This document shows positions 6,417 to 34,001 of a stretch of DNA of 42,768 nt, one piece after another. Positions within the stretch are counted from its first letter, which is position 1; each line of letters starts with the position of its first letter. Source of the stretch: Verrucomicrobiota bacterium (GTDB lineage: Bacteria > Verrucomicrobiota > Verrucomicrobiia > Chthoniobacterales > UBA10450). Both the position numbers and the translations under genes were made by a program. The notes under the pieces are model-generated. The model ran no database searches. It was not told the DNA's origin and saw nothing but the letters and a program-made list of their open reading frames with translations. The DNA is taken from assembly GCA_003220005.1 (NCBI GenBank), contig QHRD01000010.1, positions 1 to 42,768 on the forward strand. The letters run 5' to 3'.

Positions 6417-7235
6417 ATGCCAGAGCTTCCCGACGTCGAGACATTCAAACGATACCTCGACGCCACGTCATTGCATCAGCGCATCGTCGGAGTCGATGTG
6501 CGCAACGCCTATGTCCTGAAAGATGTTTCCGCACGTAAGCTGGCGCAACAACTGAAAGGCCGCCGCTTCGAATCAAGCCGCCGCCACGGCAAAAATCTCT
6601 TCGTGCGCGCCGACCATGCGATCTGGCTGCGGCTGCACTTCGGAATGACGGGTTTTCTGCGCTATTTCAAAAATGAAGAAAAGGCGCAACAACCCGCCTC
6701 CGCCAAGGCTACGGCGGGCAGGCATGCCCGCGTCGTATTTGTTTTTGAAAAAGATCATCGGCTTGCATTCGATGATCAGCGCATGTTCGGCGAGATCGGT
6801 TTAGTCAAGGATGTCGATCAGTTTTTGAAAAAACGTGGCCTCGGCCCGGATGCGCTCCATGTCGATCTTGCGCAATTCAAAAATATTCTCACAAAACATC
6901 GCGGACCGGTGAAATCGATTTTACTGAACCAGAAATTGATCGCCGGAATTGGCAATATTTACGCCGACGAAATTCTTTTCCGCGCCTGCATTCATCCGGC
7001 GACGCAAACTTCATTGCTGAAAGAGAAAGCAGTTGCGAAGCTATTTCCGGCCACGCGCTACATTTTGAAAAAAGCGATCGAGTCGAAAGCTGATGCCGAT
7101 CGAGTGCCGAAATCGTGGCTGCTGCCGCGTCGCGGCAGAGGCGGCAAATGCCCGCGTTGCGCCCGCGAATTGCAATCGGCAACGATCGGCGGCCGCACCA
7201 CCTGGTTTTGCCCTCACTGTCAGAAGCGACTCTGA
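6417..7235 (+). CDS. mutM: formamidopyrimidine-DNA glycosylase (Fpg/MutM family)
   Basis: starts MPELPDVE; GMTG, DDQRMFG, NQKLIAGIGNIYADEILF, C-x2-C...C-x2-C zinc finger. Start set to ATG 6417 rather than TTG 6399. Confidence 0.93.
   Translation: MPELPDVETFKRYLDATSLHQRIVGVDVRNAYVLKDVSARKLAQQLKGRRFESSRRHGKNLFVRADHAIWLRLHFGMTGFLRYFKNEEKAQQPASAKATAGRHARVVFVFEKDHRLAFDDQRMFGEIGLVKDVDQFLKKRGLGPDALHVDLAQFKNILTKHRGPVKSILLNQKLIAGIGNIYADEILFRACIHPATQTSLLKEKAVAKLFPATRYILKKAIESKADADRVPKSWLLPRRGRGGKCPRCARELQSATIGGRTTWFCPHCQKRL
6693..6723 (+). repeat. CCCGCC-TCCGCCAAGGCTAC-GGCGGG element, copy 1, inside mutM
   Basis: 31 bp, one mismatch to the copy at 10710; hairpin arms CCCGCC/GGCGGG; encodes PASAKATAGR. 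Confidence 0.85.
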
Positions 7236-8677: not shown

Positions 8678-8728
8678 GGTAGGAACATCGCGCTGCGATA
8701 ACCGGACGCCGCCGCGCGGCGTCCTACC
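8678..8728. repeat. cloverleaf-like palindromic element at a convergent gene junction
   Basis: outer GGTAGGA/TCCTACC, inner ATCGC-GCT-GCGAT and GGACGCCGC-CGC-GCGGCGTCC. Confidence 0.7.
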
Positions 8729-9705
8729 TACACCATCGGGCGAAAACGCCCCACGACTTCCTGCAAACGCTCCGTGATCTGGCCTAACGAACAGACCTCA
8801 GCCGCTTCTAGCAGAGCGGGGAAAACATTTTCACCACCATCAGCGGCTCCCGCTAGTTTATCTAGCGCGCGTTTCGCTTTCTCGGCATTTTTCTTTTTGA
8901 ATTTCACAAGGCGATCGACCTGCCACTGCCGTTTGCTCCGCGGGATGCGCGCAAGTTTCACGTCCGGAATGTCATCGTCGCCGTCGCGGTAGCGGTTCAA
9001 GCCTACGCTTGGGCGAATTCCATCGTAAATTTGCTGTTCGTAGCGATGGGCGGCGTTTTGGATCTGGCTACGCTGATAACGTTCTTCTACTGCTGCCAGC
9101 ACGCCGCCGAGCCGTTCGATCTCGCGGAATTCATCGAGAATCGCCGCTTCCACCGCGCGCTCGACAGCTTTCATCCCGGGCGAACCGCTTAGCATGTTCA
9201 TGGTGTGTTTAAAAATGCCGGACTCCTCGAGCAGGATTGCCTGTCCGTGCGCAGCAAGCCGGATCCATTCTTCACTCGGCGTGGTGAAAGGTTCGTCGGC
9301 GCTATTCGAATGACACGAATTCGTGGCATTCATGTAAGCCAGGATTAACTCGGTTGCCGTACGGGTAAGATTGTTTTTGAACTCGGCGGCAATCAGCGAG
9401 CGCCCGCTGGTTTGCGTATGTAATTTGTAAAGCTGCGCTTTTGGCCCCGCGCCGAACACGTCACGCATTCCGATCGCCCAGATCCGACGCGACACGCGCG
9501 CGAGCGCGATGTACTCAGCGTCCAGTCCGCAATCAAGAAAGAACGAAAGACGCGGTCCGAATTGATCGACGGGGATGCCGCGCCCGGCGAACATTTCTAC
9601 GTACGCGAATCCGTTGGACAACGTGTAAGCAGCTTGCTGCACCGGCGTCGAGCCGGCTTCGCCGATGTGGTAGCCGCTAATCGAGATCGGATACCAGCGC
9701 GGCAT
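8728..9705 (-). CDS. acyl-CoA mutase large (catalytic) domain, C-terminal part; frameshifted continuation of 9597..10511
   Basis: MPRWYPISISGYHIGEAGSTPVQQAAYTLSNGFAYVE is the conserved B12-mutase TIM-barrel segment; continues the upstream ORF in another frame. Confidence 0.85.
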   Translation of the reverse strand: MPRWYPISISGYHIGEAGSTPVQQAAYTLSNGFAYVEMFAGRGIPVDQFGPRLSFFLDCGLDAEYIALARVSRRIWAIGMRDVFGAGPKAQLYKLHTQTSGRSLIAAEFKNNLTRTATELILAYMNATNSCHSNSADEPFTTPSEEWIRLAAHGQAILLEESGIFKHTMNMLSGSPGMKAVERAVEAAILDEFREIERLGGVLAAVEERYQRSQIQNAAHRYEQQIYDGIRPSVGLNRYRDGDDDIPDVKLARIPRSKRQWQVDRLVKFKKKNAEKAKRALDKLAGAADGGENVFPALLEAAEVCSLGQITERLQEVVGRFRPMV

Positions 9706-9719
9706 TTCGCGCGTGGTAA

Positions 9720-10511
9720 GATCGTTTCGTTCTGCGCCTGGACTTCCTTGAAAATGTCGGCCTGAATTGTGCCCCGCAACTTCGGAACAACTCTCGGCCC
9801 GAACCGCCGTTTCGCAGCAGCGATGTACATCGCCATGATAATCGGCGCCGGGCCGCTAATCGTCATTGACGCAGAGAAATTCGTCGAGCCGAGATCGAAT
9901 CCATCGTATAGCCGTACCATGTCTTCGACAGTGTCGATCGCCACGCCGCCTTCGCCGATCTTTCCAAAGACACCGTCCGCATCGCTGTCGATCCCGTAGA
10001 GCGTCGGGCCATCGAACGCCGTGCTGAGACGGTGCGTGCGCTGGTGGCGTGTGAGATACTGAAAACGCTCGTTCGTGTCCTCAGCCAGCATCAAACCGGA
10101 GAACAATCGCGTGGGCTCTTCGACTTGCGGAATTTTCTCGCCACGGGACGAGTCCGTCCGACTGGCGGACTTGTCGAGTTTACCGCCGTTCTTCTCAAAG
10201 CTTTCAATCTCGCGAACCGGCTCGAGATACATCTCGCGATAGGTCGCGTTCAGATACGGAAATTCGCCGGGCAATCCTTCGCCGAAAAGATAACGCGCGA
10301 CCTCGCCGGGCTCGTCGATTTCCGGCAAAGCGAGTCGTGGCAAGGGCAAGCCGGTCGGGGTGCGAGTGGTCGGAATCTTTGCTTTGAAGTCGTTCCAGCG
10401 GCCACGCAGTTCGCCGCCGAATTTTTCATCCGTGCGCGCGCGTTTCACCTGATCGAGGACAAACTTGTTATAGGTCTCAACCGATTCGACGACTTGTCCG
10501 AGTTTGCTCAT
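9720..10511 (-). CDS. acyl-CoA mutase (IcmF/MCM-like) catalytic domain, N-terminal part
   Basis: VEEPTRLFSGLMLAEDTNERFQYL, STAFDGPTLYGIDSD, GGVAIDTVEDMVRLYDG, LRGTIQADIFKEVQAQNETIL; homology stops at about 9720. Confidence 0.85.
10147..10175. repeat. palindromic element GACGAGTCCG-TCCGACTGG-CGGACTTGTC inside the mutase ORF
   Basis: 10-bp arms, one wobble/mismatch; encodes DKSASRTDSSR in the mutase frame. Confidence 0.7.
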
Positions 10512-10529
10512 TTCTTTGGTTAACTTCCT

Positions 10530-10612
10530 GTCATTCCGAGCGGAGTCGAGGAATCTCTATCTAATTTTTCTCAGAGAAGATCCAGAGATGTCTCGACTTC
10601 GCTCGACATGAC
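10530..10612. repeat. GTCAT...ATGAC dispersed element, copy 2, between the two icmF halves
   Basis: GTCATTCCGAGCGGAGTCGAGGAATCTCT ... AGAGATGTCTCGACTTCGCTCGACATGAC, 83 bp with imperfect 29-bp inverted ends. Confidence 0.85.
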
Positions 10613-10619
10613 AAGTTGA

Positions 10620-11783
10620 TTATACGCGCCCACAAATTAAATCGAACAATCGGTCGACGCCAGGGTCGCGGTGACGTTTTGCGACAGTGTCGATCAGTTG
10701 CTGCGACCGCCCGCCTCCGCCAAGGCTACGACGGGCAGGCCGGTTTTGTTCCAGGCGTTGCTCGATTTCCGTGTGCGCGGTGCGCGCGCGCTGAAGATCG
10801 CTTTTGTTCACCACGATGATGTCCGCCAAATCAAGCATCACGATTTTTTGCAATTGCAACCGGCTGCCGTAATCCGGATTCATCACCAGCACTGTTTGAT
10901 CGACAATTCCATTTTTCTGAAACGGCATTGCCTCCTGGCCGGTACCGACGGTCTCGATAATGACGTAATTGAATTTCGATTGAGCGAGCAGCACCAGGCA
11001 ATCGTGCGTCGCGGGCGAAAGCCCGCCCGCTTGTCCGCGTGTGGCCATGCTGCGCATGAACACGCGATCGTCCTGCGAGTTGATCATTGTGGCACGATCG
11101 CCCAGCAACGCGCCTTCGCCGACCACGCTGGGATCATGGGACAAAATTGCAATCCTTCCTTTCGGATCTCGATTAAGAAAACGCAGCACGAGCTCGTCGA
11201 TCAATGTCGTTTTGCCCGCACCACCCGGCCCGGTGAAACCAATGACACGGCTTCGCCGTGAAGTCCGAATTTCGAATTTCGAATTTCGAATTTTCTTCCG
11301 GCCCGCGGCGGCATCTTCAATCTCCGTCAGCCTGTGTGCGAGTTCCTGATCGAATGATTTGGCCTGCGACCGTTTCGCTCGCGATTTGCCATAGCGTTGA
11401 TGGACAAATTTCACCATGTCCTCGAGCGACGTGCCGGCGAAAAAAACTTCCTCGACGCCTTTGCGTTTCATGATCGCGGCATCGTCATGTGTAATGGTGC
11501 CGCCGCCACCACCGAATACCTTGATGTCGTCTGCCCCTTTTTTGCGGAGAAGATTCACAACCTCAGCAAAAAACTCAATGTGTCCGCCGTTGTAACTGGA
11601 GATGCCAATCGCGCGCACGTCTTCCTGGATCGCCGCGCGCACGATGTCGCCCACCGAGCGATGATAACCGAGATAAATGACCTCAATGCCATGCCGAATG
11701 AATTCCAAATTGATTGTATTGATCGCGCTATCGTGCCCGTCGCAAATCGGAACCGCGGTCAAAATCCGGATGGGTGAAGCCAT
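10620..11783 (-). CDS. B12-binding domain fused to MeaB/ArgK-type GTPase (N-terminal half of an IcmF-like mutase)
   Basis: DGHDSAINTINLEFIRHGIEVIYLGYHRSVGDIVRAAIQEDVRAIGISSYNGGHIEFF (B12 domain); GFTGPGGAGKTTLIDEL, NKSD (GTPase). Confidence 0.9.
   Translation of the reverse strand: MASPIRILTAVPICDGHDSAINTINLEFIRHGIEVIYLGYHRSVGDIVRAAIQEDVRAIGISSYNGGHIEFFAEVVNLLRKKGADDIKVFGGGGGTITHDDAAIMKRKGVEEVFFAGTSLEDMVKFVHQRYGKSRAKRSQAKSFDQELAHRLTEIEDAAAGRKKIRNSKFEIRTSRRSRVIGFTGPGGAGKTTLIDELVLRFLNRDPKGRIAILSHDPSVVGEGALLGDRATMINSQDDRVFMRSMATRGQAGGLSPATHDCLVLLAQSKFNYVIIETVGTGQEAMPFQKNGIVDQTVLVMNPDYGSRLQLQKIVMLDLADIIVVNKSDLQRARTAHTEIEQRLEQNRPARRSLGGGGRSQQLIDTVAKRHRDPGVDRLFDLICGRV
10710..10740 (+). repeat. CCCGCC...GGGCAGGC element, copy 2, inside the GTPase ORF
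   Basis: CCCGCCTCCGCCAAGGCTACGACGGGCAGGC, one mismatch to the mutM copy; encodes PARRSLGGGG on the - strand. Confidence 0.85.
11266..11293. repeat. heptamer tandem repeat (CGAATTT)x4
   Basis: 28 bp = 4 exact 7-bp units, in the linker between B12 and GTPase domains. Confidence 0.9.
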
Positions 11784-11888: not shown

Positions 11889-12644
11889 ATGGCCGATCCG
11901 TTAAATTTCACCGACAAAGTTGTGCTGGTCACCGGCAGTTCGCGCGGGATCGGCGCAGAAATGATCAAGGCCTTCGGGAAACACGACGCACAGTGCGTGG
12001 TGAACTATGTCGAAGATGCTCAAGGGCAGAATAAGACCGACGCGATGACGGTCGCGAAAGAATTAAACGAGCCACTAGTGATCGAGTGCGACGTAACCCA
12101 GCCGGCGCAGGTCGAAGCCATGATAAAGCAAATACAGGATCGACATGGCGGCCTCGATATTCTCGTGAACAATTCCGGCATCATTAGCGATCGCACCATC
12201 AAGAAAATGTCGATGGATGAATTCGAGAGCGTCATTCGCGTAAATCTAATCGGCACATTCATCGTCACTCAAAAAGCAGGCGCGATTCTGCGCAACGGCG
12301 GCCGGATCATCAACATGTCCTCCGTGAGCGGCCAACTGGGCTTGTTCGGCCAAGCCAATTATTCGTCGAGCAAAGCGGGGATTATTTCGCTCACGAAAGT
12401 CTCTGCCCGCGAGTTTGCCCGGCAAAGCGTCACTGTGAATGCCATCGCTCCGGGTTTCATCGACGTCGGCATGAGCAAGGGTATGCCCGATGAAGTGACG
12501 CAGAATTTTATCAAACAAATTCCGCTCGGCCGCCTCGGTGACGTAAGTGAAATTGTAAACGCAGCGCTCTTCCTTGCGTCCCCAATGGCGTCATATATCA
12601 CGGGGCAAGTCTTGAACGTGAACGGCGGTTTTTACATGGGCTGA
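11889..12644 (+). CDS. short-chain dehydrogenase/reductase, 3-oxoacyl-ACP reductase-like
   Basis: VLVTGSSRGIGAEMIKAF, LVNNSGI, YSSSKAG, GQVLNVNGGFYMG. Confidence 0.92.
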   Translation: MADPLNFTDKVVLVTGSSRGIGAEMIKAFGKHDAQCVVNYVEDAQGQNKTDAMTVAKELNEPLVIECDVTQPAQVEAMIKQIQDRHGGLDILVNNSGIISDRTIKKMSMDEFESVIRVNLIGTFIVTQKAGAILRNGGRIINMSSVSGQLGLFGQANYSSSKAGIISLTKVSAREFARQSVTVNAIAPGFIDVGMSKGMPDEVTQNFIKQIPLGRLGDVSEIVNAALFLASPMASYITGQVLNVNGGFYMG

Positions 12645-17691: not shown

Positions 17692-17720
17692 GCGTAGGTG
17701 GAACGCGTTTTCCCTCGGCA

Positions 17721-17743
17721 CGCCGTAGCCTTGGCGAAGGTGG
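17721..17743 (-). repeat. CCCGCC-type element, inverted copy 4, bracketed by AACGCGTT
   Basis: reverse complement CCACCTTCGCCAAGGCTACGGCG; AACGCGTT at 17702-17709 and 17747-17754. Confidence 0.65.
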
Positions 17744-22204: not shown

Positions 22205-22232
22205 GTCATTCCGAGCGAAGTCGAGGAATGAC
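22205..22232. repeat. GTCAT...ATGAC dispersed element, short form, between convergent pyrC and CBS gene
   Basis: GTCATTCC-GAGCGAAGTCGA-GGAATGAC. Confidence 0.8.
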
Positions 22233-27885: not shown

Positions 27886-27913
27886 GAGATCCCTCGACTT
27901 TGCTCAAAATGAC
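27886..27913. repeat. GTCAT/ATGAC dispersed element, half copy
   Basis: GAGATCCCTCGACTTTGCTCAAAATGAC resembles the right end of the copies at 10530 and 35590. Confidence 0.6.
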
Positions 27914-33080: not shown

Positions 33081-33128
33081 CAGCGCTTGTGCCCAGCGCC
33101 GGTGGATGCAATGTTTTGCCCGCTCCGC

Positions 33129-33201
33129 GCCGACGTAGCTCAGCTGGTAGAGCAGCGGTTTCGTAAACCGCAGGTCACGGGTTCGAATCCCGTCGTCGGC
33201 T
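33129..33201 (+). tRNA. tRNA-Thr (CGT)
   Basis: acceptor GCCGACG/CGTCGGC, AGCTCAGCTGGTAGAGC D-arm, anticodon loop TTCGTAA, T-arm GGTTCGAATCC; no encoded CCA. Confidence 0.95.
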
Positions 33202-33212
33202 CAGCCTTCGCA

Positions 33213-34001
33213 ATGACCAATTTGTCCAGACCACCCCACTCCGTCTCGATCATCGTTCCTACTTTGAACGAAGAGGAAAATATCGTGCCGCTGGTTGCGC
33301 AAATCACTGCGTGCGCTGTTCCTTTTCGGGAAATTTTGTTCGTCGATGATCATTCGACCGATGCCACTCGCGAGGAGATCCGGGCTCTGGAGAAGAGTCA
33401 ACCAATTCGCCTAGTCGAACAAGACGGCGCAGGACTCGGATTAGCCAGCGCGATTATGTCTGGCGCCCGCGCCGCCCGAGGGGAAATTCTTCTGGTGATG
33501 GATGCAGACCTGAGTCATCCACCTGAGCAGATCAAAGATTTATAGGCGCCACTGTTCGCTGGCAGCGCCGACCTGGTGGTTGGAAGCCGGTATGTGAAAG
33601 GCGGGTCCACACCTGGCTGGCCGATGTGGCGCCGGATCATGTCCCGAGCGGGCGCTGGGCTGGCTTATCCGCTTACCGGTCTGCACGATTCGATGTGCGG
33701 GTTTTTCGCTATCGGCCGTTCTCGGCTCCTGGAGTTGGCGCCACACACCAGCGGTTTTAAAATTGTCTTCGAGACGATTGTGCGCGGCGGCGACACGCTG
33801 CGCGTACAGGAAATTCCCATTGCTTTTCGCGACCGCGCACGCGGGAAATCGAAAATGTCATTCAGCGTCGCGCTGCGATTTTTTCTCCGCTGGCTGCGCG
33901 CGATGTTTCAGTACGTCGCGCGCGGCGCACGTCCCAGTGGAAACGCTGCAAAACTCGCCCGCACAACGGAGGCCTTACATCAAGAGGCCCCAGGAAAGTA
34001 G
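33213..34001 (+). pseudogene. GT2 glycosyltransferase (dolichol-phosphate mannosyltransferase/DPM1-like) with in-frame TAG at 33543-33545
   Basis: SVSIIVPTLNEEENIVPLV ... FVDDHSTDATREEI ... LVMDADLSHPPEQIKDL * APLFAGSADLVVGSRYVKGGSTPGWPMWRRIMSR; same frame on both sides of the stop. Confidence 0.8.

Follow-up and report, generated by a model that had tools for sequence, protein, structure and literature searches.

A very probable two-polypeptide IcmF-type mutase in Verrucomicrobiota and a REP-type repeat at its gene junction

The locus and its two subunits

The window, by which we mean the whole 42,768-nucleotide stretch of DNA analysed here, carries on its minus strand a cobalamin-binding GTPase gene followed by the gene of a mutase barrel, with a short palindromic repeat between the two. 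Its features are as follows (labels beginning with L denote the related loci to which it was compared):

11889..12644, plus strand: divergent short-chain dehydrogenase (SDR), a neighbour gene also present in L075, L101, L104, L107, L146 and the Phycisphaerales locus L136
10620..11783, minus strand: open reading frame (ORF) of subunit 1, cobalamin-binding and MeaB/IcmF-type G domain, 387 residues (Pfam and NCBIfam)
10529..10613, no strand assigned: REP doublet, head to head (TGTCATGTCGAGCG... / ...CGCTCGGAATGACA), within a 108-nt junction (repeat search, folding)
9707..10511, minus strand: N-terminal part of subunit 2, IcmF linker-like helices (about residues 1-56) and the start of the mutase TIM barrel, ending at a frameshift (PF01642 and IcmF matches; hhalign of intact relatives)
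9704..9720, minus strand: approximate site of a 46-bp deletion, the source of the frameshift (DNA alignment; reference L071, L074 and L075)
8728..9705, minus strand: C-terminal part of the subunit 2 barrel, in another frame (PF01642 195-512; IcmF 790-1110, 8e-77)

The mutase ATG lies at 10511, separated by 108 nt from the GTPase stop codon, and every coordinate that an earlier note had given for this anatomy (the B12-binding and GTPase ORF, a palindrome at 10530-10612 and a mutase from 10511) proved to be correct. Elsewhere in the window, a glycosyltransferase-like ORF (33087-34001) contains an in-frame TAG at 33543-33545, with a clear homologous reading on both sides.

Subunit 1 matches the Pfam families for B12 binding (PF02310, 2e-14) and the MeaB GTPase (PF03308, 1e-39), the cobalamin-binding domain spanning residues 4-130 and the G domain, of the MeaB/IcmF type, residues 175-387. 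The cobalamin histidine and the G-protein motifs are all kept in the family alignment, as DGHD, GPGGAGKTT, ETVGTGQ (ETVGxGQ) and NKSD (NKxD). Its best sequence match in the PDB is the fused isobutyryl-CoA mutase IcmF of Cupriavidus metallidurans (CmIcmF, 4xc6; 1.2e-63), and its AlphaFold2 model (pLDDT 76) matched IcmF over ~400 columns with a query TM-score of 0.84, versus about 0.34-0.46 for stand-alone MeaB/MMAA in the same fold search. The stand-alone MeaB/MMAA chaperones have the same G-domain family (PF03308, TIGR00750), but subunit 1 differs from them in carrying the cofactor domain in cis and in lacking the C-terminal end of the MeaB models, whose coverage stops at 230/273 and 233/300 with a score below the TIGR00750 cut-off.

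Short repeats occur within the subunit 1 coding region. The linker between the B12 and G domains contains in-frame ATTCGAA micro-repeats (IRNSKFEIRTS) at window positions ~11262-11295; relatives, L074 and L075 for example, have different micro-repeats in their place. Another palindrome (CCTGCCCGTCGTAGCCTTGGCGGAGGCGGG), distinct from that of the junction, is inserted in frame at 10710-10739, and L075 has an exact empty site for it. This repeat is also found at 6694-6719 (in an Fpg-like ORF) and 17718-17743, has ~19 copies in the genome versus 1 in the control, and recalls the in-frame palindromic elements of Rickettsia.

The mutase of the window is split over two frames, 10511..9597 and 9705..8728. 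The earlier note was right about its start but missed that the frame is broken by the deletion near 9705. The 46 bp found in L071, L074 and L075 between GATCTT/GATTTT and ACNACGC are missing here, so that ~15 barrel residues are gone and the frame is shifted; the gap between the two mutase pieces is 11 nt in the window versus 57 nt in most relatives. This lesion may be real, as in a pseudogene, or an assembly error of a metagenome-assembled genome (MAG), and this genome's copy may thus be inactive or misassembled.

One could read the whole locus as the decaying remnant of a pathway no longer used in this lineage, in which a build-up of elements is tolerated. Indeed, the frameshifting deletion affects the only copy of each part found in this genome (82% complete), deletions or frameshifts of the mutase also occur in L072, L124 and L148, and repeats sit in frame inside the coding regions. 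We nevertheless consider decay rather unlikely, given that nearly all relatives with complete sequence keep an intact mutase of about 583-620 residues, that the breaks are isolated and confined to draft MAGs, a likely setting for assembly errors, and that the GTPase ORF is intact with its motifs kept.

Kinship with IcmF and the arrangement in relatives

All three pieces encoded in the window, subunit 1 and the two parts of the mutase, find IcmF first among solved structures in sequence searches and have the IcmF model NF045497 as their best NCBIfam match, with scores of 294, 154 and 324 bits that are all far below the curated cut-off of 1500 bits. The model predicted for the mutase of L074, of moderate quality (pLDDT 67), also has IcmF as its best fold match, which makes IcmF the best match for both split parts in sequence and in fold. 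The domain order of the split pair is that of IcmF (B12, G domain, linker, barrel), with ~35-44% identity. When intact relatives were aligned to fused IcmF with hhalign, subunit 1 took up columns 18-409 and subunit 2 columns 440-1077, so subunit 2 starts inside the IcmF linker, to which the N-terminus of the split mutase is homologous. The split pair differs from IcmF, a single polypeptide, in its two chains, encoded by separate ORFs both here and in every relative that could be scored, and in lacking ~100 residues of the linker: in intact relatives the match to the IcmF profile runs to ~393-410 and resumes at ~512.

The barrel itself has a signature of its own. In the mutase family, positions such as the Tyr/Phe near the FPY motif and the motif Gln set the choice of substrate. 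The split mutases have an invariant Tyr beside the FPY motif, where IcmF has Phe (after FPYxxxx), whereas the Gln of QAQN/QGQN, also invariant, is retained as in IcmF.

On the mutase tree the split enzymes form a clade (support 95/92; 36 rows) beside a fused clade (100/100) of five rows from Pseudomonadota, Actinomycetota, Bacillota and Bacteroidota. That the split enzymes have a clade of their own beside the fused ones indicates that the two-protein form is old; the two clades are sisters, which is compatible with either the split or the fused form having come first.

Some 110 related loci in Verrucomicrobiota and Planctomycetota have two separate ORFs each. A fused copy was found neither in 80 loci (one genome per species) nor in ~45 further loci, and 195 Verrucomicrobiota genomes gave no match above the IcmF cut-off, although the control genomes likewise gave none above it. 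Two long open frames taken as candidate fusions, G236 (1109 residues) and G177 (1011 residues), turned out on closer reading to hold two ORFs each. In one scan, ~32 of some 72 scorable loci showed a 4-bp ATGA overlap of the GTPase stop with the mutase start, among them those of Chthoniobacter flavus (L146), Planctomycetaceae (L150) and distant Verrucomicrobiota. The remaining relatives have short spacers, with a GTPase-mutase distance of ~1-1.8 kb in a few (L073, L080, L129, L130, L148). Five loci have a GTPase ORF and no mutase match, L133 and L149 with ~4 kb of downstream sequence and L142, L143 and L105 with less; the pair is thus not always adjacent.

Individual relatives show further rearrangements. 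An acetyltransferase-like gene (identified by eye), intact or broken, lies between the GTPase and mutase genes of L080 (1392-2409) and L130 (5120-6318). In L073 (5274-6213), and also in L036, the GTPase gene and the complete mutase gene, ~0.9 kb apart, have between them a truncated mutase N-terminus with ~32 matching residues. The genome of L071 holds a second GTPase/mutase pair (L102, 388-1461) whose GTPase lacks ~32 residues around positions 246-277; it may be a paralogue, a contaminant or a misassembly.

The repeat at the junction

The junction repeat consists of two 30-nt arms (10529-10558 and 10584-10613) that are 83% complementary and fold at -41.8 kcal/mol (z -6.5), a stability equalled by 0 of 200 shuffles. 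The arm motif has four matches in the window, against 0.06 expected, and 70 in the 2.53-Mb draft genome, against none for the reversed control. Across the genome the arms, which start with TGTCAT, occur both as head-to-head doublets and singly, and single arms of this family also lie at window positions 22205-22225 and 27893-27913.

These properties resemble those of a superfamily of CGTC/TGTC-tagged REP dimers (PMC3733652): short palindromes, here tagged TGTC-AT, that form head-to-head heterodimers and singlets, reach high copy number, are occasionally intragenic and flank no dedicated transposase gene. The stem and loop appear to differ from those described there. By eye, each unit pairs ATTCC/GGAAT or ATGTC/GACAT with a bulged inner pairing, not identical to the listed REP families, for which an 8-9 bp stem, a 4-5 nt loop and a CCA tail are given; no CGTC repeats are listed for Verrucomicrobia (PMC3733652). 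A RAYT-borne REPIN was considered and set aside: Y1 transposase genes exist in the genome (four Y1_Tnp matches), but none is flanked by the junction repeat, and their surrounding loci of 2-2.8 kb contain no REP.

Among 60 relatives, the palindrome is present at the GTPase-mutase junction, as a doublet or a single arm, in 19 and absent from 41. Explaining this distribution takes 13 changes on the tree, of which the starred branches for absence force at least eight. The closest relatives, L071 and L072, whose subunit 1 is 96% identical, lack the palindrome and have the 4-bp overlap; in these two and in L074 the junction sequence is translated as the tail of the GTPase. L121 translates the palindrome itself, which there forms a GTPase C-terminal tail, VIPSAVEGS...FARNDG (identified by eye). 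The junction is hypervariable among relatives and offers no clean empty site, and no direct repeat of the kind expected from a target-site duplication flanks the element in the window. The palindrome is a REP-type repeat, ordinary for this genome, and a recurrent, polymorphic passenger at this junction.

Such a hairpin between cistrons might have a regulatory role, setting the subunit ratio by stabilising or processing the mRNA. Its stability and its repeated occurrence at this junction, which showed no terminator-like T run, fit such a role, and REPs have been hypothesised to affect termination or to stabilise mRNA (PMC3733652). However, the element is not required, since more than two-thirds of the relatives surveyed do without it and their junctions are very variable, and it is abundant elsewhere in the genome; a regulatory role of this kind seems improbable to us, while an effect of the REP on transcript stability is possible.

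The earlier note had offered two alternatives, a natural two-subunit IcmF lineage and an ancestral fused icmF cut in two by a small mobile palindrome, of which the former is supported, both ORFs aligning best to IcmF with linker homology present. To the latter we give virtually no credence: the element does lie exactly between two ORFs in IcmF order, but most relatives, among them palindrome-free genomes of Phycisphaerales, Planctomycetaceae and Chthoniobacter flavus, are split without it, many through ATGA overlaps in which the ORFs use different frames, and a polymorphic passenger of such a permissive region, which in L121 is even part of the translated GTPase, cannot have split the gene.

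Function and architecture

Next to the pair lies a divergent SDR in the window, in other Verrucomicrobia and in one genome of Phycisphaerales; some relatives have a thiolase, an acyl-CoA dehydrogenase, a carboxyltransferase or an AMP-binding ligase there. Such neighbours are consistent with a carbon-skeleton mutase that works in acyl-CoA catabolism, with acyl-CoA as the presumed class of substrate.

We consider it very probable that the pair, which occurs across a whole branch of soil bacteria, encodes a two-polypeptide, IcmF-type, adenosylcobalamin (AdoCbl)-dependent acyl-CoA mutase and that it predates the palindrome at its permissive junction. Chain 1 joins the cobalamin-binding domain to its own G-protein chaperone domain, and chain 2 carries a short segment of the IcmF linker with the substrate-binding barrel. 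Their cistrons are adjacent and in many relatives show the observed 4-bp stop-start overlap; by analogy with IcmF the two chains would form a single enzyme whose loading with AdoCbl is gated by GTP. The REP inserts between the last residue of the G domain and the mutase start codon, only loosening or replacing the overlap of the ORFs.

Known three-part systems (Ilyobacter, Sphingobium; Hcm/Icm type) likewise have a separate mutase subunit, the large one, and encode the same three functions together, but there the small B12 subunit and MeaB are separate genes that follow the mutase gene, whereas here they form one chain encoded before it. IcmF has been described as a notable exception to the stand-alone G-protein chaperones (PMC10481361), and our search of the open literature found no description of a split IcmF arrangement. 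Verrucomicrobiota and Planctomycetota may own a distinct and old class of AdoCbl mutases, a proposal we regard as plausible rather than probable, in which the chaperone is covalently tied to the cofactor domain and not to the barrel, the assembly does without the larger part of the IcmF linker and without the C-terminal end of MeaB, and the Tyr/Gln signature goes with an uncharacterised acyl-CoA substrate.

The locus also calls for caution in reading gene splits, as REP elements between, and even within, ORFs can here mimic the cause of a split. IcmF is the standard model for a G-protein chaperone covalently joined to its B12 mutase and MeaB/MCM the stand-alone model. A natural split between the G domain and the barrel that leaves cofactor and chaperone together on one chain gives an architecture intermediate between them, and could be used to test which tethers matter to cofactor gating.
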